Positions 1-12,133 of a stretch of DNA of 12,133 nucleotides are shown piece by piece. The first letter of the stretch is position 1, and the number at the start of each line of letters is the position of its first letter. The notes under the pieces are model-generated. The model saw nothing but the letters and a program-made list of their open reading frames with translations, searched no databases and was not told where the DNA came from. The stretch comes from an uncultured bacterium (GTDB lineage Bacteria > Patescibacteriota > Gracilibacteria > Absconditabacterales > Absconditicoccaceae), in the NCBI GenBank assembly GCA_903943625.1, contig CAJAPL010000133.1, positions 1 through 12,133 on the forward strand, read 5' to 3'. A program made the translations under genes and the position numbers.

Positions 1-223
1 AATCAAGGTTGAACAACAAGCAGTTGAGAAAATCAAAGTTGAACAACAGGCAGTTGAGAAAATCAAAGTTGAACAACAAGCAGTTGAGAAAATCAAGGTT
101 GAACAACAAGCAGTTGAGAAAATCAAAGTTGAACAACAAGCAGTTGAGAAAATCAAGGTTGAACAACAAGCAGTTGAGAAAATCAAGGTTGAACAACAAG
201 CAGTTGAGAAAATCAAAGTTGAA
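1..223 (+). repeat. 30-bp in-frame tandem repeat, 7.4 visible copies
   Basis: The 30-base unit beginning aatcaa(a/g)gttgaacaaca repeats without indels, starting before the window and breaking off after position 223. Unit length is a multiple of three, so each copy adds ten residues, NQ(S/G)GTTSSGE. Copies differ almost only at the third codon (AGT Ser or GGT Gly); copy 2 also has GGC in place of AGC. Copies 3-4 and 5-6 form the same AGT/GGT pair, suggesting a recent 60-bp duplication. Two of the Gly codons per unit are TGA. Confidence 0.95.
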
Positions 224-1725
224 ATGTGGACACCTGAAATATCCAAACATGATGAAACTTAACCTGAAACAATCAAACTGGCTCAGAAACCACATGATGA
301 TTTACACAGGAATCTCAGGATCAGACACCCATTTGTAGTAATTCAGATTTTAATTTTATAAATCCTTTAAGTTGAAGTAAATTAAAATGAACTATAACTT
401 TTTCTCGGACATATATTTGAACAGATTGTTCTTGAAAAAATTTCGATATATATCTCCGAGACCACAACAGCCAGTGGATAAAGGTTTGAACTTCTTCATC
501 TCTAAATACTCGGTTCCAGTTCAATTCATCTCAATTATATTCGTGATTTTACAATATTTTATCAGATAGTTGAAATATTATATATACATGACAATATACT
601 TGATTAAATTCAAAACACTATACTGGTTACAAAATTAAATTTCTAGATCAAAATCAAAACATTGTTTACACTTGAAATGTTTTTACGATAGACAATCAGT
701 TGCCAGCAGTCACATGAGTGGCTATGGAATTCACATGAAACTATAATTTATGATATATTGGACTAAGCTGAACTATAAATATAAATTTCACTTCCACAGA
801 AGATCTCACTGGAGTCATAGTTAATATACTTTGAAGGGAGGCTTTATTTGTAAGTAGATCTTGATTAAACTACAAGTATTCTATTGTTCTCTCAAGTCAA
901 AACACATGAGATGCTGTTTATAGTAATATTTCTTTCGCTGATTTCGCAAATAATACCTGATCAAAATATCTTACATCGCAAGTAATTTTCGATAAAACAT
1001 CGCCGGCATTAAGTTACATCCTACTTACATGAACTTACACAGGATTCGACGTTTTATGGAGCTGAAAGGAATTAACCAAATATGAACTTACATATACATT
1101 ATCGTGAACTCAGACATGAATAACATTATCTAATTTGACTTACATGTACACTGGTTCAATAAACATTACTTGATTAAATCAAAACCAGATTTATAATTTT
1201 ATTTTTAAATTAATCGATCCTGTAAATAATGTGCTGGCCGTATGAGGTAAAATTTTCTTCACTACATGAGGGAAAGTATCTTTTACATCACGGAACATAA
1301 CTGGTTATGTAAATAGCGGTAATAACATGACGGGTAGCGTCTCCACTTGATCTACTTGAGGTATAGCTACAATATCAAACATAATAAAGCAAGAGATAGA
1401 TAAATTTAACTCATGTAAGGAGGATATAGAAATAACAGCCATTACTATCCAAATAAATGGTCAAGATATCAGTCTTAATATGCCAAATTTCGGAAGAAGT
1501 GATATAAGAAAAATAGTAAACTCGTTCGCAATAGTAGTAATGGATAAGTTAGAAAAATCTAATCTAACTAAAGATGAATTAGATGATATCATAGATAGAT
1601 TCGATGATTTCTTAATTATACTTAAACTCGTAAGAGATGACGAAAATCAGTGCAAACAAAATCTGTCTAACTACCACATTAGATTATTCCAGAAAACATT
1701 AAAGGAATATAACATTTCAATATAA
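1..1725 (+). CDS. Secreted repeat/Ig-like surface protein, 5' truncated (code 25)
   Basis: Frame 1 is open from the window edge to a TAA at 1723-1725 with no TAA or TAG (574 residues visible). It contains about 48 in-frame TGA codons against about 19 GGN, so it exists only if TGA is Gly. Order of parts: tandem decapeptides NQ(S/G)GTTSSGE (residues 1-74); a Gly/Thr/Asn/Gln-rich linker to about 106; a beta-rich stretch with C112 and C143; two modules about 100 residues apart opened by similar strands (TIDNQLPAVTG near 229-239, IFDKTSPALS near 329-338), the usual opening of bacterial Ig-like domains; a third Gly/Thr-rich beta region to about 460; then a charged, mostly helical C-terminal domain (about 460-574) with C472 and C551. 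Composition suggests an exported adhesin or fibre. The N-terminus, where a signal peptide would lie, is outside the window. No family is named with confidence. The last 110 residues lack TGA, so a standard-code caller would find only 1480-1725. Confidence 0.88.
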
Positions 1726-1783
1726 CAAAGACATCCTATCTTCTTTAGTTGGATATTAATCCTTGTGATTTTTTATAATCCTT

Positions 1784-2179
1784 CTATATACTCTCGATTA
1801 CCATTTCTCTTTCAGTCTCAGATTTTTTTATAATGTTTATTTCCAAATGCCCTTCTAGTCAGAGTCTTTCAATAAATTTTGGCCATTCAACAACTACATA
1901 ATCAAACTGATCAATCTGATCAAGGATCCCTTTCTCTACCAGGTCCTCATATTTTTCTATTCTATACATATCAATGTGTAATAGCTTGTTCTCATAAATA
2001 TTTATATAGGCATAGGTAGGGCTTTGTACAATGTCTGCATTAATTCCCAATCATTTAGCAAATCCTTTTGTTAGTAAAGTTTTACCAGCCCCTAAATCTC
2101 ACTTCAATAACAAAATCTTTGACTTCAGCGCCAATCATTCTCAAAAACTTAACATCTCCTCGGGTGATTTTATAAGCAT
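1784..2179 (-). CDS. tsaE: tRNA threonylcarbamoyladenosine biosynthesis ATPase TsaE
   Basis: 131 residues, ATG at 2179-2177, stop TAG at 1786-1784. TsaE is the small ATPase that works with TsaB and TsaD in making the t6A modification at position 37 of ANN-decoding tRNAs in the cytoplasm. The family motifs are all visible in order: N-terminal SPEEMLSFGEGLA (5-17), Walker A GDLGAGKT (27-34), the switch-like SPTY (53-56), HIDMYR (68-73) and EWPK (98-101). Several conserved Gly, including the first of the Walker A loop, are TGA, so only a fragment (residues 44-106) is visible under the standard code. The upstream ATG is chosen because the SxEE motif lies just after it; an ATG at 2155 would remove that motif. 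It is divergent from the exonuclease gene and convergent with the repeat protein (58 bp between stops). Confidence 0.95.
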
Positions 2180-2222
2180 ACTTCTGAAGAATTAATATAA
2201 AAACCGATAACAATCTTTAATC

Positions 2223-2271
2223 TTGAATCTTTTACTTTAAATCTTATAAGCAAAACACCATACACATTCAA
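2223..2271. promoter_or_regulatory. Divergent promoter pair with a shared palindromic -10 core
   Basis: In the 113-bp gap between tsaE and the exonuclease, CTTATAAG (2243-2250) is its own reverse complement and could give a -10 (TATAAG) to both strands. Leftward, TTGAAT (2271-2266) lies 17 bp from TATAAG (2248-2243). Rightward, TTGAAT (2223-2228) lies 16 bp from TATAAG (2245-2250). Both fit sigma-70-like spacing, giving leaders of roughly 35-60 nt. This is pattern matching in AT-rich DNA; it is not proof of transcription. Confidence 0.4.
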
Positions 2272-2292
2272 TATTTAATTTTAAATAAAAAA

Positions 2293-3180
2293 ATGAAGCT
2301 TCTTATAATAGATTGATCGTGATTCCTTTATAGAGCCTATTATGCTTTCCCTCAATTAACCGACAAAGATGGACACAATATAAACGTTGTTTACTGATTT
2401 TTTCGTATGTTATTAAAGATATTCCACGAGGATCCAGATTATCTAGTAATTTGCTGGGACTCGCCAGTAAAAACGCTAAGACATGAAGCCTATGAAGAAT
2501 ACAAAGCCAACCGTAAAAAAATGGACGATGACTTCAAAAACCAGATACCACTGACACAATCGATAGTAAGCCAACTTTCTATACCAAACTTAATGGTTAA
2601 TTGATATGAAGCTGATGATATCATAGCGACATTAGCCAATAATTTCAAAAGCGACCCTAACCTAGTAATAGATATATATTCTTCAGACAAAGACCTCAAA
2701 CAACTCTTGGGTAGCAATGTTTTCTGTGTGGACCCCATGAAATGAATCAGAACGGATACAAAATCATTCTTACAAGAGTTCACATTCCAGCCTCAATACA
2801 TCCTTGACTACTTAGCTTTAACTGGAGATAGTGCCGATAATATAAAATGAGTTTGATGAATTTGACCCAAAAAGGCACTTGATCTTATAAAAAAATATCA
2901 AACAATAGATAATATTTATGAGCATATAGATGAAATCTCTTGAGATATAAAAGATAAACTGATTGCTTCCAAACAAGAGGCTTATCATAGTAGAGGATTA
3001 ATAGAATTACACGATATCCAGGATATAAAAGCAAAACCAATTTCAGATTTTAAATTATTCTTGGATTTTGAAAGGTACAAAAACACGCTTGTTAATGAAT
3101 ACAATTTTTCTTCTTTTGATAAACAACTGGATGATCTAAAAAAGAAACTATGTACCCCCACACAAAATTCGTTGTTTTAA
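2293..3180 (+). CDS. Stand-alone 5'-3' exonuclease (PolA N-terminal/FEN-like)
   Basis: 295 residues, ATG 2293 to TAA 3180. This is the size and content of the 5' nuclease domain of DNA polymerase I without the polymerase, a metal-dependent flap nuclease that would remove RNA primers or act in excision repair. Visible motifs: LLIIDGSGFLYRAYYAFP (3-20, D7), ICWD (53-56, D56), the arch segment YEEYKANRKKM (67-77), GYEADD (104-109), SSDKDLKQL (130-138), and the helix-3turn-helix with metal ligands GDSADNIKGVGGIGPKKA (178-195, D179 and D182). All expected acidic ligands are present. In the turn, the usual PGVPGIG is KGVGGIG. Gly8, Gly10, Gly104 and several H3TH Gly are TGA. The last 60 residues are a charged tail with no recognised domain. 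No polymerase or 3' exonuclease domain follows; the stop is followed by a convergent gene. Confidence 0.94.
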
Positions 3181-3209
3181 AAAAAGCCCACAAAGCTAGG
3201 CAGCCTTGT
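3181..3209 (-). terminator. Probable terminator for the leftward membrane protein gene
   Basis: Between the convergent stops (3180 and 3235) lies an imperfect hairpin: ACAA-A-GCT (3190-3197), loop AGGC, AGC-C-TTGT (3202-3209), seven pairs with one A/C mismatch. Read leftward, the stem is followed by GGGC and a run of seven T, as in an intrinsic terminator. Read rightward, the following T run is poor (CTCTTT), so it would serve mainly the minus-strand gene. Confidence 0.4.
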
Positions 3210-3234
3210 AGACTCTTTATGGTTAGATTTATTA

Positions 3235-6200
3235 TTAATCGGCTAGTTGGAATACTATAAGCTGACTTCATCATCATAGGCTCTGTCACAAAAGATTATT
3301 TATTATCTGTCAGTATTGTTCTTGATTGCCAGCTTGTAATATATTATAAAGTCACAAATATTGCCCTAAAACGCTTCTTTCGTCTTGTGTCAATTCCTTT
3401 ATCTTAGTCTGCATTTCTTCAGGGGTACCTTGTTTTTCTATATAAGCTTGAGCCACTGGTAGTATCTTAATTTCATCAATATTTTTTCACATAATATCCG
3501 AAATATCTCATATAGCTTCTCAGTTTATCACTCTTTGAGAAAAGGTATCTGCTATAAACTGTATCAGTTGATTGGCATCAGGGAAGAATCTGGCAACTGC
3601 TAATTTGGTTCTCAAGAATATCATTTGATCCGCAGTCATCTCGCCGAAAGTTTGCTTAATGGCACTATCATCTAGGGTATAAGCATATTTTGCTCATATA
3701 TTATTTGTTGTATATAATTTCATATAACCATCCTGGACCATCTTTGTCATCATACTAAGTGCTCAATGATCCTGTATGGTACCATCAACAGGATTCCTTT
3801 TTGCGAAAAACCTGTTGAACAAAGATTCATTTCATTCTCACATTACGACTGTTCATATGTTTGGATCTATAACAAAATATTTAATCTCATCCTGCTTTAG
3901 TCTTTGGTATGATTTGCATATATCACCATCAGAAGTTTTCCCCCAGAATCGATCTAGCATTCAATCCAATTTTAAGTTATGCTGATTTTTTAAGAAATAC
4001 TGAATGTAAGTTCATGCTATCAGAACTCAATCACTATTTGGTCTATTCTCTACAAGATCAATAAATTTGTTATAATGAGGAAATTGTAAATCAAAAACAT
4101 CTTTCCATCAATATCAGTACTTCAAAACTTCACTTCATTGTAGTCATTCATTAAATTCATATACTTTACCTACATTCATTCTATACCACAAAAACGGTCA
4201 TCATGCTCACTGTGAAGATATCCTTATAAAGTTAAACAAAAATTGAACAAATACCCACAATCAAAGCATCACTATAACAACCCATAAAATATTCCTCTCT
4301 CATTCGTTTTTGGAGTATTCAAATAATCTTCTTATAAATATAGCAAACACCATAGTGCTCCACATTATAAGTCATATTCCATACCAAACTATTCATCCTC
4401 ATATTAGCCACCATATTCATCGTCAAATAATAGCTATGGCAGACAGACTAATTAAATTCTTTTCATTTTTTATAAATCAATATATTAGAGCGAGTATTAT
4501 AGATATAAACATTATCATCCGCACGAATCATATATCGGTATAATAACTACTTAAATTCTGAAGCGACCAGTTGTAGACCACATTAAATGGAGTAAGATAT
4601 CTATAGGGGATATTTATTTTGCCAAATTCTGCTTTAACGCTATGATTTTGATAATATTGTCTCAAAGAAACTATATAGTCCCTAAATTCTTGGGGGTTAT
4701 ATGATGATCATTCTTTATATCATTTATCTGCGAACGCTTTCAGCGCTCAACTCAAAATATCATAAGCTTTTCAATTTTTATCCAATTTTTCAAATACCTG
4801 TTTTAAATATTTTACATCAAAACTATCTACCGCATATTTATTATTACACAATATCTTAGCATCAGTATTTAGTCCATAACACTTATTGTTGCTAGGGTAT
4901 ATTAGTCTGAGTATACCGTATCATAAGTTTAGTCATCCTCCTTTTTTGATTTCTTTTCGCCCATATCATACATATCTTCATACATCTTCATTTCAGCCGA
5001 TGGCTTTTCTAAGGTTTTTTTCCAGATCGTTTTCAGTGAAATTTTGGATCTTGCAACTTTCCACAGATATGGCAGTGCCTTTTGTCGGCATAATCACGGC
5101 TCAACTTATAGCGTTTAAATCAATATTATTTTGCCCTTCTAATGTTTTAATGTCTTGAGTAACTGCTAACAATTTTTGTCCGTCTCATCATTTAGCATCT
5201 ACAACGTCTGATTTCTTATTATCTTGATTATATCACATCAATAGTCCCTTGGCAAAATTTCAAGCCCCCAAGTCTCAATTTAAAACTTGTTTATAAATCA
5301 GTGTGGGTCATTTGAGCAGCAAAAGGCTAACTCAAAACGATAGTATCCATAAAATTATAGTTTTTATATATATTTTTTTATCTTTAAATCACTTTTTTAA
5401 TCACAATATTATTATTCAAACTATAAATATGATAAATCATATTAAGACCAATTCTTTGCCAAGTCATACATTTATGAAATCTGGAGCATTCCCAATCTGC
5501 AAAACTCACATTATTCACATTACTGATATTCAAGCTCATGCCGCCATAATCCAATTGAGCCAAAGTCATACTAACAATAAGCCAAATAATGCTATATCAA
5601 GGAAAGCTGTTGGTTTTGACATACTAGCAACTGTAAATAATAATCAAGACATTATGACATATTTTGAGTTGTTTGATCCTATTTCCAATCACTTTTCTTT
5701 GTTGTCTTTTATATGGTTTATGAATATTATTCATGAAAGAATTGCTAATATAGTCATCGCCATTACTCATAAATCAGTTTTATTATCTACAAAGACTAGA
5801 AATGCTCCCATCCCACTAGTCAGCCATAGCAACATCCAAACCCATCAAGAATAGAAAGAAATATTCCTAATTAAACTTCAATCTTTTAATGTCTCTAGCT
5901 TTTTTTCAAAAAAGTTTAATATCTCTTTTACAACACCAAGAGAAAATAGTAATACAAATATTCAACTCAAAAAATTCATAGATACGGCTATATTGTCTGC
6001 GGATAACCAAAACCATCATTTAATAGGTTGTATAAGGCTAAACCAAAATGTTATAAATGCATGCCAAAGCATAGGGGCCGAACTAGCAGCTCATAAGTTG
6101 CCTCGGATTACTCAAAAACTTTCAGCTAATACCTTTGGTTCATACATATAAGCATGATTTGCATCCCAAGCAGTAGAGTACGGTATAAAAGACAATTCAA

Positions 6201-6888
6201 ATCAATAATAATAATAAATTATAGATATAACCAAAAGAATTAATCATATCCATTTCCACCGGTTGTTTTTTAATTCATAGGATTTAAATTCTTGAATAGC
6301 TTCAGAAATAATATTTTTATAATGAATGAGACCTTTTTTTTCTTTATATATCATAAATCATCGTCACACAAAGATGATTCGAGTAAGTATAGGATACAAT
6401 ATACTTAAAGATGCTAGGGTATATACCAATAGTAGCATTATTCATAAACCAATACCGAAACTTAATAACATTTCTTGTCGTCTCGTTTCTTTAAATTTTA
6501 TTGTCTTATTTGAAATCCGGTTTCCCAAAGACAAAGTCCCAACAACGAAATAAGCCCCCAGAGCAAATACTATTAAAGTGTTTATTAATAGAATAATAAA
6601 TCATCATCATAATATAGTATCTTTAACCATTACATGAATTATTCAAAACAACAATAATCAAACAACCAAATAAATAATAAATTTTTTCAAAGAGAATATC
6701 CTTGCTTTATATAAATAGTAAATGGGGATTAAGCTAGACACTATCGCTCCAAAAAATATCTTTCGATTGTCTCGAGAATTTAGCATAGTAGAGTAGTAGG
6801 TGTGGTTTACTCGATACTCATTAAAAATTCATACTCAGAAAAAAACCAAAATAAGGGCGATTATGCCAAGGAATATCTTTTGTTTCAT
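3235..6888 (-). CDS. Giant polytopic membrane protein, probable GT-C-type glycosyltransferase
   Basis: 1217 residues, ATG 6888-6886, TAA 3237-3235 followed in frame by two more TAA. The frame is continuous through dozens of TGA glycines. An N-terminal block of many hydrophobic helices (about 1-535) is broken by a short loop holding YSTAWDANHAYMYEPKVLAE (237-256). A W-D in the first large extracytoplasmic loop, before a helix bundle, recalls the acidic-loop layout of lipid-phosphosugar transferases of the GT-C fold. A large hydrophilic domain (about 536-775) follows, then three or four more helices (about 785-885), then a soluble C-terminal domain (about 895-1217) including DEIKYFVIDPNI, similar in style to the extracytoplasmic C-terminal domains of oligosaccharyl- and mannosyl-transferases. 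No WWDYG motif was found. The family assignment is an inference from topology; an unrelated transporter or flippase is possible. Cytosolic loops such as NSRDNRK and KETRRQEM hold CGA arginines. It is divergent from the cytidylyltransferase gene. Confidence 0.72.
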
Positions 6889-7068
6889 ATTATGAAAGAA
6901 TATATAAAATTATCACTAAACCTAATAATATGATAGTATTTTTCAAGTTCTATTTAATAAATTTTACGTTAGTGCTCTATAATTCAAAATAAATGTTGAA
7001 TATGGTCTAGATAAAAATATCGTGAAATGCTAAATATGATTCTATGTTTTTAAAATTATACTATAAAT
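6889..7068. other. AT-rich divergent intergenic region
   Basis: These 180 bases separate two divergently transcribed genes and must hold both promoters. TTGAAT occurs on the plus strand at 6996-7001 and on the minus strand at 6987-6982, but neither has a convincing -10 at 16-18 bp. No coding frame, RNA gene or strong hairpin was recognised. Confidence 0.6.
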
Positions 7069-7518
7069 ATGAAAACAATAGTAATTACTTCTGGGTATTT
7101 TAATCCTCTTCATCCATGACATATTGAATGCTTCAATCTTTGTAGGGGTTTGTGAGATGAACTTCGAGTGATAGTAAACAACGATGATCAGGTTAAAGCA
7201 AAAACATGAGAAATAGTGGTTTTTCAAGATGAACAATTTAGAATCAAAGTCATTTCTGCCTTGAGATCCGTAGACTGCGTAATGTTATCTATCGATCCTG
7301 TGGATAGCACTATTTCAGTATGTGAAAGCATCAAAAAAATAGCAAATCTTATCAGACAAAAGTATGGGACAGAAACAAAAATTATTTTTGGCAAAGGTGG
7401 AGATAGGTTTACAAGCAACATCCCCGAGGTCCAGGTATGCAAGGATTGTAACATAGAAATTAAAGATTGACTTGGGGCAAAAATACACAATAGTAGTGAT
7501 TATAGGATTAAGGCTTAA
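7069..7518 (+). CDS. Cytidylyltransferase-like nucleotidyltransferase (HxGH family)
   Basis: 149 residues, ATG 7069 to TAA 7518. The start MKTIVITSGYFNPLHPGH (1-18) carries the HxGH signature (H15, H18) of the nucleotidyltransferase alpha/beta phosphodiesterase superfamily. It is followed by GDELRVIVNNDDQVKAKTGE, which aligns in style with the GDxLxVxVNSDxxVxxxKG segment, then KGGDR (109-113) and GAKIHNSSDYRI near the C-terminus, the counterpart of the GxKxSSSxLI motif. This set is typical of the sugar- and polyol-phosphate transferases: the adenylyltransferase domain of HldE and the TagD-type glycerol-3-phosphate cytidylyltransferases. The enzyme would join a sugar or polyol phosphate to a nucleotide with loss of pyrophosphate. 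The exact substrate cannot be read from the sequence. Length matches a single catalytic domain. Its place between two putative glycosyltransferase genes fits precursor activation for an envelope glycan. Confidence 0.85.
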
Positions 7519-7587
7519 TTATAGTATATTGCGAGACGCAGTTGAGTATTTGGCCATATTAAAAACCTTCTATAATATCACAAAAAA

Positions 7588-7614
7588 CTTGATTTTAATT
7601 TCTTATTATATAAT
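7588..7614 (+). promoter_or_regulatory. Possible promoter of the four-gene operon
   Basis: A perfect -10 consensus TATAAT (7609-7614) ends 31 bp before the ATG at 7646. The best -35-like match upstream is CTTGAT (7588-7593), 15 bp away and therefore short. A second TATAAT at 7571-7576 has no good -35. A promoter here would make the downstream four genes a unit separate from the cytidylyltransferase. No clear Shine-Dalgarno precedes the gene. Confidence 0.35.
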
Positions 7615-7645
7615 CATTGACTAATTTTATGTGTTTATCAAAATT

Positions 7646-8695
7646 ATGAAAAAAATAATTCTGGTTTTAATGTGATTATTTTATTTTATTTGATGGGGAT
7701 CCGCATATCAACAACAGTGATTTGACAATTACAACGAATCAAATTGATCACTAAATTTTCAATGCTCAAATCAATGTTTCCTTTTGGTTTGACCGGTTTC
7801 TCAAAACGATTTTGTGAGCATAAACTGAAACTTGCAATGAAATTGAAACTTATGATACTGATTTTTAGTATGAGAACAGATTTACTTATGAGAGACATTG
7901 CAGATTAATGGATGACCAGATATAAATCAAAAATTTGTGTTATCAAATTCTCCAGCTTATGCACAAATACCTTGAGATGCTCAATTGGCATTGATGTTCC
8001 AATGAAATTTCGTCTGAAATCAGATTGTAATTAATTGATGAATGATGTGAATTTTTGATAATTTTATAAATTGATTTAATCAGGCTCTAGAATATAAGTC
8101 ATATAATCCAAGGACAATAAATTTTCTTGAGTGACCGATTCGGAACTGAAAATATATAAACCAATCTTTCCTACCAATAATAGCAATTCTCATTTGATTG
8201 GCATTTTTGTCGTATATATTTTCTTCCAAAAGAGACAATAAGAAGAAATCAATTTATTTCTGAATATTAGTTCTCGCCTTTTTCTGGGTATTATTTGATT
8301 TTTTCTCAACGGTTAATCAAATAAAGATTTACAAAGACGTTACAGACGTTCCCAATATAATGGAAAATTGAAGAGTGGGGAAAGATTCAGATTTTTATCA
8401 ATTCTTGACATTTATAAAAACACAAGTACCATCTAAAGTTAAATGATTTTTCATCGCCCCCTATCCTTTCAATTTTGAATGAAAGTATCATATTTATCCA
8501 GACGTAAAATTTTGACCTATAACTGGAGTACAATATCTTTTTGTATACAACCCCTATTGAGCAAATGCTCCTTTCGATTTCAAAGACCCGATATATTCTA
8601 GCTGAGTTCTATTCCGAGATAATTCGTTATTCCCAGTCCAAAAAGAAATCCAACGAAAACCTTATGCAAAAATTTATAGATTATTACCAAAATAA
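7646..8695 (+). CDS. Exported membrane protein with two TM segments, unknown function
   Basis: 349 residues, ATG 7646 to TAA 8695. The N-terminus MKKIILVLMGLFYFIGWGSA reads as a signal peptide ending near residue 20. Residues about 21-172 form a Gly/Asn/Gln-rich, beta-looking extracytoplasmic domain with one Cys pair (C37, C41). Two hydrophobic helices (about 174-192 and 203-222) flank a short basic loop SSKRDNKKKS, which places the loop inside the cell by the positive-inside rule. The C-terminal 125 residues, again outside, contain FFIAPYPFNFEGKYHIYPD and end in a basic tail. Glycines in the first domain are overwhelmingly TGA. No family is recognised. C-terminal extracytoplasmic domains of similar flavour occur in membrane glycosyltransferases, so it may be an accessory subunit of the GT-C-like protein encoded 71 bp downstream, but this is inference from adjacency only. 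Confidence 0.82.
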
Positions 8696-8766
8696 TCCCA
8701 AAACATAACAAGCTATAAAAACAATATGTGTTTTTTAATCAGAATTTATATTTTGAATAAATAAAA

Positions 8767-10173
8767 ATGATCTTAATCCCTATTTTGTTAGCCTTAGGAA
8801 CATGAGTTTTAATTTTGCGATTATGCAATCAGCATAAATTTCTTAATATTTTCGAGCAATTGGCATTATGATTTGTTATGGCTCTATCATTATTTGTTTT
8901 TGAGCTATTCCTAGAATGAATCGTTTTTGATAAACTATCTTTAATTTTGCCAATAGTTACTTTCATGCTCAGTTTATGAATCTTCATATATAAATGCATT
9001 AAATATAAATATTTTCGAAAAGAGATACTAAATTCTATAAAACACACATTTTCAGAGGTTAAATTACAATTTATCTTATTAAAAGAGCGGCAAAAATATG
9101 TTGTAATTTTAATCCTAATATATGTTTTATTAAAGCTGTTTATGGTCTTCTCTATAAACACTCATATGCCGACATTTGACGAAGACGCCGTAGGTGGTCG
9201 AGATATAAAAACAAAGATATTCACAGAAAATAAAAGTCTAGTGTTGGATAAAAGTAGTCCAGAGTTTCTTGGTAGCGCATTAGAGAGGAATATATTCGCT
9301 CCGCTTACTGATACCTATTTCTTATTATCGAATGATTCAAATACAAGTTGATATACAAACATTGTATCTGCATTATTCTATTGTATGTCCATTTTAATCC
9401 TATTCTGAATTATTTTAAGAAAGACGAATCTCTTATTTGCTATGTTGGGAGCATATATTTTTGCCTCATTGCCGTTTGTATTTATCCATTGACTTGGTGC
9501 TTACCGAAACTTTATTGGATGAGTTTTTATATTTATTGTTATGTTCTATTTGATTGACCAAATACTAAACTTAGATAAAAACAATCCAGAAAAAAAATCA
9601 TTAAAAATTCCACTAATGATTATTCTTTTCTTAGCTAGTACCATTAGAAATGAATCTGTAATATTAATTATTATTTCTTTTGTGACAATATTTATAATAA
9701 ATTATTTCACAAGGAAGGGGGAAAAAATAAATATAATGTCTTATGTGGTCCCATTGATTGGAGTCGTTATATGATATTTATCAGGGAAGTTTATTTTAAA
9801 GCTATATCCTGCTGATTCTTCCCTAATAATGTGAAATCCTAAAATATGAGACATTTTGCCCAATTTATCTGCGAATCAGGATTTGTTTGTGGCTCCCTTT
9901 AAACAAATGTTTTTCCATCCAGATTATATCTTGTTATATCTTTTATTTAGTATAAGTATAATCCTTTTTATAAGAAACTATAAAAAAATGGAGAAGTTAT
10001 TGTGTTTTTTTGTATTAATTATTGTATTGATGGGCGTTTCAATATTGATACTTTTCTCTGATATGGGGATGTGAATACTAACCCATTTTGCATACATTAG
10101 GTACTCAATATTCTTAGTTCCATTCATAATTTACTTTACCACGATGAGTCTATTTTTATCTAAAAATGAATAA
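8767..10173 (+). CDS. GT-C-like (family 39/PMT-type) membrane glycosyltransferase
   Basis: 468 residues, ATG 8767 to TAA 10173, with about ten or more hydrophobic helices. After the N-terminal helices, the first sizeable extracytoplasmic loop begins MPTFDEDAVGGRD (134-146), with clustered acids D138, E139 and D140. An acidic pair here is the catalytic hallmark of GT-C enzymes that move sugars from lipid phosphates to proteins or glycans. The loop continues to about residue 195 (RNIFAPLTDTYFLLSNDSNT), followed by regularly spaced helices with short connections, including FVFIHGLGAYRNFIGG and LASTIRNESV. Size and topology match family 39-like transferases better than flippases. Donor and acceptor cannot be told. 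The last codons overlap the next gene by 8 nt (ATGAATAA), indicating an operon with likely translational coupling. The weak point is the family call, not the reading frame. Confidence 0.78.
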
Positions 10174-11569
10174 TTTAAAAATGAAAAAAAAGGTTCTTTT
10201 GCTTAATTTACCATGAAAAGAAAAATATCTAAGAGAATACTTCTGTTCTAAGATTTCAAAGGCAAGATATTATTATCCTCCAGTTGATTTGGTATATATT
10301 AGTGGAAGATTTGATGAAGCAAAATATAATCTGTTTTTGATAGATTCTATAGCTGAAAATATATCTCCAGCCACGACCATAGAGAAAATTAATAATATTG
10401 CGCCAGATTATATATATTTTCTAGCAGGAGCTGCGTCGTTTAGAGAAGATAAATGATTTATCCAGCAATTGCTTTTGGATCTTACATGCTCACCAAAAAT
10501 TATAGGAACAGGAGACATATTCAGGGAATTAAAAGAGGAATCTTTTAATGTTTTTAAGTGAATAGATGCCATAAATTTCCATTTTACAACGGCTGATGTC
10601 ATAAGCTATATTGAGCATTGAGATTGAAAAATAATAGATAATATGATATACATGCATGAAGATCACTTAGTTGTTGGTAAAGAACAGTTTGACAAATGAA
10701 TACGAAATGTTCCTATTCCTAAACGGGAAATGTTTGATCCTAAAAATTATAGTAATCCGTTCGCCATGAGAGAATATAGTTCAGTTATGATGACAGATCT
10801 CTCTTGCCCATTTAGTTGCGAATTTTGCCCGTATAGTACTATTAATTATTCTGTAAGGCAAATAGATGACGTCATTGAAGAAATTAAAATTCTTAAAACG
10901 ATCTGAATAAATGATGTTTTTTTTGTCGATGCTACATTTGGTTTACAAAAAGAAAGATTACAAAAATTATGTAATTGATTGAGGCAGTGTAAAATGAGTC
11001 GGTCTTGTTTTTGAAGAGTGGATAATATAGATAAAGAAAAAATAGAGATGATGAAAAGTGCTTGATGTCACACAATTGTTTTTGGTATCGAGTCTATGAA
11101 TCAGGATATTTTGGATAAATACAATAAGAAGACTAAAATTTCCCAGATTCGGGAGGCGATGGATTTATGTAAAAAAAATAAGATCAGAGCTGGCTGAACA
11201 TTTATTGTTTGATTGCCATGAGATGATGAAAAATCAATAAGAAACACTATTTTCTTAAGTAAAACACTACATCTAGATTTCGCTTCATTTAATATAGCTA
11301 CTCCCAGGATTTGAACACATTTTAGAAAAGATATGATTGAAAAATGATTTGCTAATCCCGATGAGCTTAATCTAGAATCCAGTAAACAAAAAACACAGGT
11401 CTGGAATTCGCATAATCTACCATTAGCAGATTTGGTTAGATTACAAAAATCCGCGGTTAGATCATTTTATCTTAATCCTAAATACATTATTAGAAGGTTA
11501 CTGGGACTAAAATCTTTTTATGAACTCAAAAATTCTATTTTTGAGATGTATTATTTATTTTTTAAATAA
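10166..11569 (+). CDS. Radical SAM protein with B12-binding-like N-terminal domain
   Basis: 467 residues from ATG 10166; a start at 10181 (MKKKVLLLN) is equally plausible and gives 462. The first ATG overlaps the preceding stop by 8 nt, favouring coupling, and neither has a Shine-Dalgarno. Residues about 6-180 resemble the Rossmann-like domain before many radical SAM cores (KVLLLNLPG, YYYPPVDLVYISG, IAPDYIYFLAG, SPKIIGTGDI), but the cobalamin DxHxxG motif is absent, so B12 binding is doubtful. The core carries CX3CX2C for the 4Fe-4S cluster (C214, C218, C221, in SCPFSCEFCPYS), then FFVDATFG, AGCHTIVFGIESMNQDIL and GGTFIVGLPGDDEKS, matching the Elp3/MiaB-like TIM barrel pattern. Such enzymes perform radical methylation, methylthiolation or rearrangement. 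The substrate is unknown; neighbours suggest a lipid or glycan. The SAM-binding G of AGC and the GLPG glycines are TGA. Confidence 0.92.
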
Positions 11570-11573
11570 GTTT

Positions 11574-12133
11574 ATGAGAAATAGCGCGTTTGGAGAAGCC
11601 ACACTTTCTTTTATAGATAAGATATTGTTTGGCTTTAGATTGAAAAAGATATTAAAGGTAGTTGATTTAAATAATAAGATTGTTGCTGATACTGGGACTT
11701 GATATAATGCTATGGTATTGAAATATATACAAGAACACTTCAAAACAAAAGATTTAATAGCTCTAGATATAAAATTAAATAAAGAATATTTAAGTAAAAT
11801 ATGAATTACTTCTATAGAATGCGATCTCAACCAAGGTGTTAAAATCCCTTTTAAAGCTGATGTTATAATCTGAACAGCTATTTTGGAGCATTTAGCCTCT
11901 CCAGAAGTGTATGTAAAATCCATTTATGATAGCCTCAAAGAGTGATGAATCTTTATAATGACAGTGCTCAATTCGCAGGCGCCAACCTTTTTAGAGGTTT
12001 ATCCCAATCCATCCAAAGATTTTATAATTTTGGGCTATCAATTTGATAAGGAGACCAAAGGTATGATCGAGATCAGGGACATATCCGGCAAACCGGTTCA
12101 AAGTATTCCGTTCAACGGAATCCAGGACCAGGT
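11574..12133 (+). CDS. Class I SAM methyltransferase, 3' end replaced by foreign sequence
   Basis: ATG 11574 lies 4 nt after the radical SAM stop; the frame is open to the window edge (186 residues). Residues 1-131 form a Rossmann methyltransferase: motif I VADTGTGYN (37-45, normally DxGxGxG), acidic post-I strand LIALDI (62-67), CDLNQGVKIPFKADVIIGTAILEHLASPE (motifs II/III; written here as the span about 83-111), and EGGIFIMTV (123-131). The layout is that of the UbiE/MT_11 group that methylates small molecules, sugars or lipids. A normal member would continue for about 60-100 more residues after the last strand. Here, after MTV, the frame passes into LNSQAPTFLEVYPNPSKDF, which belongs to an unrelated family described separately. 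The true C-terminus is therefore probably missing. As the last gene of the operon it likely acts on the same product as the radical SAM enzyme. Confidence 0.8.
11967..12133 (+). other. Bacteroidetes-type T9SS C-terminal sorting domain fragment (probable chimera)
   Basis: In the methyltransferase frame, residues 132-186 read LNSQAPTFLEVYPNPSKDF, then ILGYQFDKETKGMIEIRDIS and GKPVQSIPFNG. YPNPxKDF, IEIRDISGKxV and the spacing between them are the signature of the type A C-terminal domain that directs cargo to the type IX secretion system of Bacteroidetes. The four glycines here are GGC, GGT, GGC and GGA, none TGA, and GC is about 42% against about 27% just upstream. A break between roughly 11961 and 11980 is the simplest reading. 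The window ends inside this domain. Confidence 0.8.

Follow-up and report, generated by a model that had tools for sequence, protein, structure and literature searches.

Glycine at TGA and, very probably, tryptophan at CGA and CGG in an Absconditabacterales (SR1) genome

The window analysed here is the whole 12,133-nucleotide stretch of contig CAJAPL010000133.1 from an uncultured bacterium (assembly GCA_903943625.1), whose genome of 1,009,705 bases in 216 contigs is 87.9% complete; at issue is the meaning of the codons TGA, CGA and CGG in its genes. Nine frames, read as open reading frames (ORFs) of the window at the places given by the initial annotation, are open only with TGA as a sense codon, and hold, in contig order, 48, 5, 10, 82, 4, 30, 12, 15 and 5 in-frame TGA codons, i.e. 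211 against 108 codons of the form GGN. The contig cuts two of the genes, the repeat protein at its start and the methyltransferase at its end, and the eight genes that close within it stop at TAA (seven) or TAG (one) and never at TGA, just as had been claimed from the letters alone. These frame, TGA and stop counts far exceed chance. Under translation table 11 the longest ORF of the window spans 183 amino acids and lies antisense to a 1217-residue gene, while no TGA-free run inside the nine genes is longer than 123 codons. The same genes use CGA 19 times, CGG 11 times, CGT twice, CGC not at all and TGG 30 times.

The first gene (1..1725, plus strand) codes for a repeat protein without Pfam match, the N-terminus of which is cut by the contig start; it ends in TAA and has 48 TGA, 19 GGN and four CGA/CGG codons, the first two being exactly the figures that had been given as approximate. 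It is followed by TsaE (1784..2179, minus strand; five TGA, stop TAG; PF02367 with 107 bits; PDB TsaE entry 5np9), a 5'-3' exonuclease (2293..3180, plus; ten TGA, stop TAA; PF02739 and PF01367), the 1217-residue multi-pass membrane protein (3235..6888, minus; 82 TGA, 13 CGA/CGG, stop TAA) and a cytidylyltransferase-like protein (7069..7518, plus; four TGA, one CGA, stop TAA; PF01467 with 33 bits). The remaining genes, all on the plus strand, code for a 354-residue membrane protein (7631..8695; 30 TGA, three CGA/CGG, stop TAA; a match to LptF_LptG below threshold only), a 468-residue multi-pass membrane protein (8767..10173; 12 TGA, five CGA/CGG, stop TAA; a match to DUF6541 below threshold only), a radical SAM protein (10166..11569; 15 TGA, four CGA/CGG, stop TAA; PF04055 with 70 bits) and the N-terminal part of a methyltransferase (11520..11980; five TGA; PF13489 and PF08241), the real end of which lies outside the window. 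A second radical SAM protein, encoded elsewhere in the genome (L050, 1202-2593, minus strand), resembles that of the window at its N-terminus. The last 150 or so bases (plus strand, about 11981-12133, with the border drawn by eye) are probably of foreign origin and would mark a chimeric join with Bacteroidota sequence: they run on in frame as a Bacteroidota-type secretion tail with a GC fraction of 0.42 versus 0.28 upstream, contain no TGA, and match PF18962 (Por_Secre_tail-like) with an E-value of 2.6e-4 and 21.6 bits, under its cut-off of 27. The earlier placing of the end of the recoded stretch at 11966 is consistent with this border.

The meaning of the codons was assessed by a column test, in which each codon is scored against the alignment columns of relatives presumed to use the standard code, the code of the references not being proven individually. 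For three of the queries TGA, CGA and CGG were replaced by X from the outset; the fourth, release factor 1 (RF1), was translated with table 25 to select its references, and the mask was applied when it was scored. Columns with less than 70% letters were skipped. The references comprised 16 sequences from 30 loci for the exonuclease (own, family and two f22 loci left out), 93 of the 120 proteins listed for the radical SAM protein (the 27 closest left out), 29 of 30 loci for a fragment of the genome's own leucyl-tRNA synthetase (LeuRS; one recoded locus left out), and 31 for its RF1, i.e. 30 loci and L073, with L072 removed by a length filter.

At the 53 TGA sites of these four genes glycine scores +95.9 bits, the next residue, alanine, -95.1 and tryptophan -146.7. 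Controls in the same run behave as arginine at AGA/AGG (+122.9, 43 sites) and at CGT/CGC (+2.9, four sites), as glycine at GGN (+54.3, 23 sites) and as tryptophan at TGG (+9.1, three sites). At 36 of these 53 sites glycine outnumbers every other residue; most of the remaining sites are variable and some are conserved for a different residue (Ala in 31/31, Gln in 29/31, Arg in 25/31 and Pro in 29/29). The initial annotation had placed TGA at conserved glycines of known families, which is borne out at 17 of the 24 TGA codons scored in the two window genes tested, those for the exonuclease and the radical SAM protein, another residue being commonest at seven; for the exonuclease the figure is eight of ten. 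The motifs it named are confirmed apart from one detail, in that only the first glycine of the TsaE P-loop, gDLGAGKT, is encoded by TGA (written here as g); TGA is present in IDgSg and gVggIgPK of the exonuclease and in gLPg of the radical SAM protein. The second TGA of IDgSg falls where glycine is not the commonest residue in relatives. These columns indicate that TGA is translated as glycine in this genome. Read-through and selenocysteine insertion are ruled out for the 211 codons by their density and by the glycine columns.

The release factor complement agrees with the loss of RF2 proposed earlier. In a profile search, prfB, the gene for RF2, was above its cut-off in none of 49 family genomes, including this one, which is 88% complete; below-cut-off matches occur in 46 of the 49 and in all 26 of the more complete ones, and the same search was positive in ten of 14 known genomes used as control. 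The place on contig C14 that might have been RF2 scores 381 bits with the prfA model, short of the 423 set as that model's cut-off, and only 206 bits with the prfB model, and is taken as RF1; its sequence contains PETESQGR, the motif of RF1. A 24-bit match on C163, also considered for RF2, is a 128-residue protein with an RF-1 domain (PF00472).

Taken at face value, the earlier suggestion to look for a tRNA-Gly(UCA) elsewhere in the genome gives a negative result, as this tRNA is absent from the 33 tRNA hits (ARAGORN was run on all) and has no DNA match in the 88%-complete assembly. A strong DNA match to this tRNA (E-value of 2e-17 or better) is found in 42 of the 49 family genomes, and it is weak or absent in seven, of which the present genome is one. 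All 30 inspected family copies have the anticodon UCA and 28 pass a strict check for glycine elements, the other two ending with one extra base; the copy of G118, a genome of the same genus, has G1:C72, C2:G71, G3:C70 and U73, which are given as glycine criteria in PMC8629427. The 33 hits also lack tRNA-Ala, Tyr, Arg(UCU), Leu(UAA) and Glu(CUC), and at the 30 inspected loci of relatives the UCA gene stands beside genes for Tyr (28), Ala (25), Arg UCU (25) and Glu CUC (23). Because this neighbouring cluster is missing from the assembly too, the absence was not counted as a refutation of the glycine reading, and it is best explained by an assembly gap.

Further oddities were seen among the tRNAs and contigs. 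G118 has a tRNA-like gene (C3:243182-243253, L211) for which ARAGORN gives an ambiguous anticodon (Gly or Arg, 'cc'). The present genome has two different tRNA-Ile(GAU) genes, two different tRNA-Pro(UGG) genes, and identical copies on two contigs of tRNA CCG and likewise of tRNA UCG, duplicates which hint at bin contamination or strain overlap; two tRNA-Asn(GUU) genes occur in it and in G118 alike. It also contains TGA-free ORFs (L055 2085-4325, L043 359-2076, L052 445-1530 and 3711-4235), several of them TGG-rich, without Pfam match and on contigs that also bear TGA-rich genes, and which may be insertions written in the standard code, the product of chimeric contigs, or genes of foreign origin.

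In the column test CGA (ten sites) scores +52.9 bits as tryptophan and -27.1 as arginine, with tryptophan the commonest residue at eight sites and phenylalanine at two; CGG, with only four sites, scores +13.0 and -7.0, the commonest residues being Trp (two), His and Arg (one each), and its reading as tryptophan has further support from the LeuRS and TrpRS (tryptophanyl-tRNA synthetase) genes of the family. All eight CGA/CGG codons of the LeuRS fragment lie at columns with tryptophan in 26 to 29 of the 29 references, and RF1 has one at a tryptophan column (24/31) and one at a mixed Phe/Tyr/Trp column (17/9/4). CGG 279 of the radical SAM protein corresponds to tryptophan in 84 of 93 relatives. 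Outside the window, in a small sample made up of the 92 mechanically called ORFs with at least five TGA among 119 kept for the genome (left out were seven of N only, ten without TGA and ten with one to four), the usage per 10,000 codons is 48.4 for CGA, 15.8 for CGG and 37.6 for TGG, such that CGA/CGG outnumber TGG. The tRNAs UCG and CCG of the genome have U20 in place of A20, together with G73, and acceptor pairs G1-C72 and A1-U72, respectively, whereas its arginine tRNAs GCG and CCU have A20; in G118, too, the tRNAs UCG and CCG have G73 and lack A20 (all positions assigned by eye). These two tRNAs thereby agree with the provisional tryptophan-acceptor criteria published in PMC8629427. On codon columns and tRNA features, then, the 30 CGA/CGG codons of the nine genes very probably mean tryptophan.

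The distribution across relatives separates the family from its sister families f14 and f22. Across 16 LeuRS columns with at least 85% tryptophan, CGA/CGG is present in all ten family genomes, at one to 12 columns each, and is commoner than TGG in six of them; in the present genome it occupies eight of the nine columns covered. At 13 conserved arginine columns of LeuRS none of the ten has CGA/CGG (the present fragment covers three of the 13). The eight f14/f22 genomes have CGA/CGG at none of the tryptophan columns, and in three of them CGA stands at conserved arginine columns (G014 one, G051 one, G066 two). A tryptophan column of RF1 shows TGG or CGA/CGG in the family and Phe, once Tyr, in f14, f22, f24 and one f5 genome. 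Since the LeuRS and RF1 columns differ between the family and f14/f22, code 25 fits those sister families and the Absconditabacterales code the present genome. Outside both groups, genome G012 (f12; L296, L385) has TGA at 18 LeuRS glycine columns and one CGG at a tryptophan column; no RF1 match was found in this genome, which is 94% complete. As for placement, the homologues of the 1217-residue protein are named Absconditicoccaceae (best named match, 81%), Absconditabacterales or SR1, from which the genome appears to belong to SR1/Absconditabacterales, supporting the recoded candidate-phylum lineage named earlier. Searched against named genomes, RF1 matches UBA6263 (83%), a bin labelled Candidatus Gracilibacteria (78%) and another labelled Candidatus Peribacteria (67%); as these carry differing names, the public names of near relatives disagree.

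These observations lead to the proposal, which we hold with high confidence, that the window comes from an Absconditabacterales (SR1) genome with three recoded codons, TGA for glycine and CGA and CGG for tryptophan. Because no RF2 gene was found, UGA would not be expected to terminate; its decoding would fall to a tRNA-Gly(UCA), which relatives have and which is presumed for this genome. CGA and CGG would be read by the tRNAs UCG and CCG without arginine identity, probably charged by the tryptophanyl-tRNA synthetase (TrpRS) of the cell, the anticodon pocket of which would keep the contacts to C35 and G73, common to the tRNAs CCA, CCG and UCG, and be altered where it touches bases 34 and 36. 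Arginine would be left with AGA/AGG and CGU/CGC.

Several points weigh against this proposal. Besides the tRNA-Gly(UCA) missing from the assembly, three codons of the radical SAM protein fall at columns of other character among its 93 relatives: CGG 187 (His 54, Trp 27), CGA 180 (Phe 59, Tyr 17) and CGG 329 (Arg 23, Lys 22), and the evidence on CGA/CGG from inside the window is thin. In the 1217-residue gene tryptophan is commonest at eight of 13 CGA/CGG columns (120 listed of 318 public homologues), the other five having Met (26), Ile (137), Leu (176) and Arg (210, 262); as a code test these homologues are weak, because the named ones share the recoded order and were seemingly read with several tables.

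The alternative that survives best, though we regard it as unlikely, is ambiguous decoding of CGA/CGG as tryptophan with some arginine, in an unfinished reassignment. The few sites in Arg- or Lys-leaning columns would fit it, as would the G1-C72 pair that tRNA UCG has in place of A/G1:U72, a weak mark of tryptophan tRNAs, and the sparing use of CGA/CGG in some family genomes, where their share of tryptophan codons ranges from 0.12 to 0.65 in twenty relatives (small samples of mechanical ORFs from 20 kb each, one from 5.7 kb). Against it, the CGA/CGG codons of family TrpRS genes lie, at columns conserved in relatives, at tryptophan in 13 cases, leucine in one and arginine in none, and the conserved LeuRS arginine columns are free of them. 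Much less probable is code 25 proper, with TGA as glycine and CGA/CGG still arginine: it accounts for the f14/f22 genomes, both in LeuRS and in TrpRS, where their CGA/CGG codons fall at Arg (two), Gln (one) and never Trp, and for the single window CGG at an Arg/Lys-leaning column, but in the present genome tryptophan exceeds arginine by 80 bits at CGA and by 20 bits at CGG, eight of nine covered LeuRS tryptophan columns are CGA/CGG, and the tRNAs UCG and CCG lack A20. Code 4, in which TGA means tryptophan, is the commonest bacterial TGA reassignment and was seemingly used by gene callers on relatives, since tryptophan makes up 23% of the residues at query TGA columns and 18.5% at GGN columns of the public 1217-residue homologues, which we read as genes called with that code, but it is refuted by the column scores and by the glycine identity of the relatives' tRNA(UCA), and has next to no probability.

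Returning to the three-codon proposal, the charging of the tRNAs UCG and CCG directs attention to TrpRS. Among the 49 family genomes, trpS has one match in 44, two in two and none in three; one of the second copies is of full length (247 bits) and the other a 46-bit partial match. An invariant tryptophan column of the TrpRS gene itself is encoded by CGG in seven, CGA in six and TGG in 25 of 38 family genes. In the structure of the E. coli enzyme with its tRNA, C34 is contacted by Tyr270 and the backbone of Gly271, C35 by Lys274, Thr225 and Asp226, A36 by Ser227 and Thr225, and G73 by Glu155, with Gln152 stacking (PMC12135181). In a phmmer alignment to 8i1w, an E. coli TrpRS entry according to the same paper, the present enzyme places T-N-T on T-D-S and Y-K-E-V-K on Y-G-H-L-K. 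Counted over 38 family enzymes (of 46), 30 of standard relatives and seven of f14/f22, in this order, Thr225, Lys274 and Glu155 are each kept in 38/30/7 and Gln152 in 37/30/7; the figures are 24/29/7 for Tyr270 (Phe in the remaining family enzymes), 14/26/5 for Asp226, 6/29/2 for Ser227 and 5/30/7 for Gly271, a position taken by Lys in the 33 family enzymes that lack Gly. By family departure, Gly271 and Ser227 rank 9 and 11 among 88 near-invariant columns; since f14/f22 switch nine of these 88 and the family seven, column switching in TrpRS is not special in itself.

This pattern would match the needs of an enzyme that accepts CCA, CCG and UCG, as a correlation only and on a long branch. A change at site 227 was rejected as specific to CGA/CGG as tryptophan, f14/f22 being changed there too (Asp in five, Ser in two of seven), and Gly271Lys as necessary, five of the 38 family enzymes keeping Gly; two of the keepers, G042 and G107, have CGA at conserved tryptophan columns in LeuRS or RF1. 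We tentatively suggest, as a possibility with the odds somewhat against it, that CGA is the most used tryptophan codon in the genus and that a single TrpRS no longer reads bases 34 and 36 while the C35 and G73 contacts are kept. No paper combining Absconditabacter with tryptophanyl-tRNA synthetase was found among the open-licence papers searched, and the terms TrpRS and tryptophanyl are absent from the main text of PMC8629427.

As to known codes, we take that of Absconditabacterales to be NCBI table 37 and that of Anaerococcus and the RFN20 clade of Bacilli to be table 36; in the 15 of 28 literature matches that were listed, the number 37 occurs neither with 'translation table' nor with 'genetic code'. 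In Anaerococcus/RFN20, TGA is a stop. These organisms share with the present genome the shift of CGG to tryptophan with a Trp-like tRNA CCG, but there CGA is taken as arginine and tRNA UCG is missing (PMC8629427). The combination of TGA as glycine with CGA/CGG as tryptophan has already been published for Absconditabacteria/Absconditabacterales (PMC8629427, PMC13092985), and the present case is like it in all three reassignments, in the order placement, in the lack of a detected RF2, in the glycine identity of the family tRNA(UCA) and in tRNAs UCG and CCG that carry G73 and lack A20. For CGG, the prediction in PMC8629427 is tryptophan in some Gracilibacteria and arginine in others. Code 25 of Gracilibacteria is like the present code in TGA as glycine and the absence of RF2, and differs in that CGA/CGG stay arginine in the f14/f22 genomes tested. 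Code 4 of the Mycoplasma type also has TGA as sense, with a different amino acid. The initial annotation's 'genetic code 25' was thus right about TGA, yet the label is incomplete, because the genome has CGA/CGG at conserved tryptophan columns, tRNAs UCG and CCG without arginine identity, and an SR1/Absconditabacterales placement.

Reading the window with table 25 turns the 30 CGA/CGG codons of its nine genes into arginines, probably wrongly; if they are tryptophan, they make up half of all tryptophan codons of the window. In the public homologues of the 1217-residue protein (120 listed of 318, P0121-P0240) the query's TGG columns hold 25% arginine and its TGA columns 23% tryptophan, and the public protein sets of the order seem to mix readings, with TGA as tryptophan and CGA/CGG as arginine. 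Errors of this kind would distort alignments of SR1 proteins and models made of them, and the TrpRS lead, if it holds, would turn the question of how tryptophan is supplied to the new tRNAs into one of charging.

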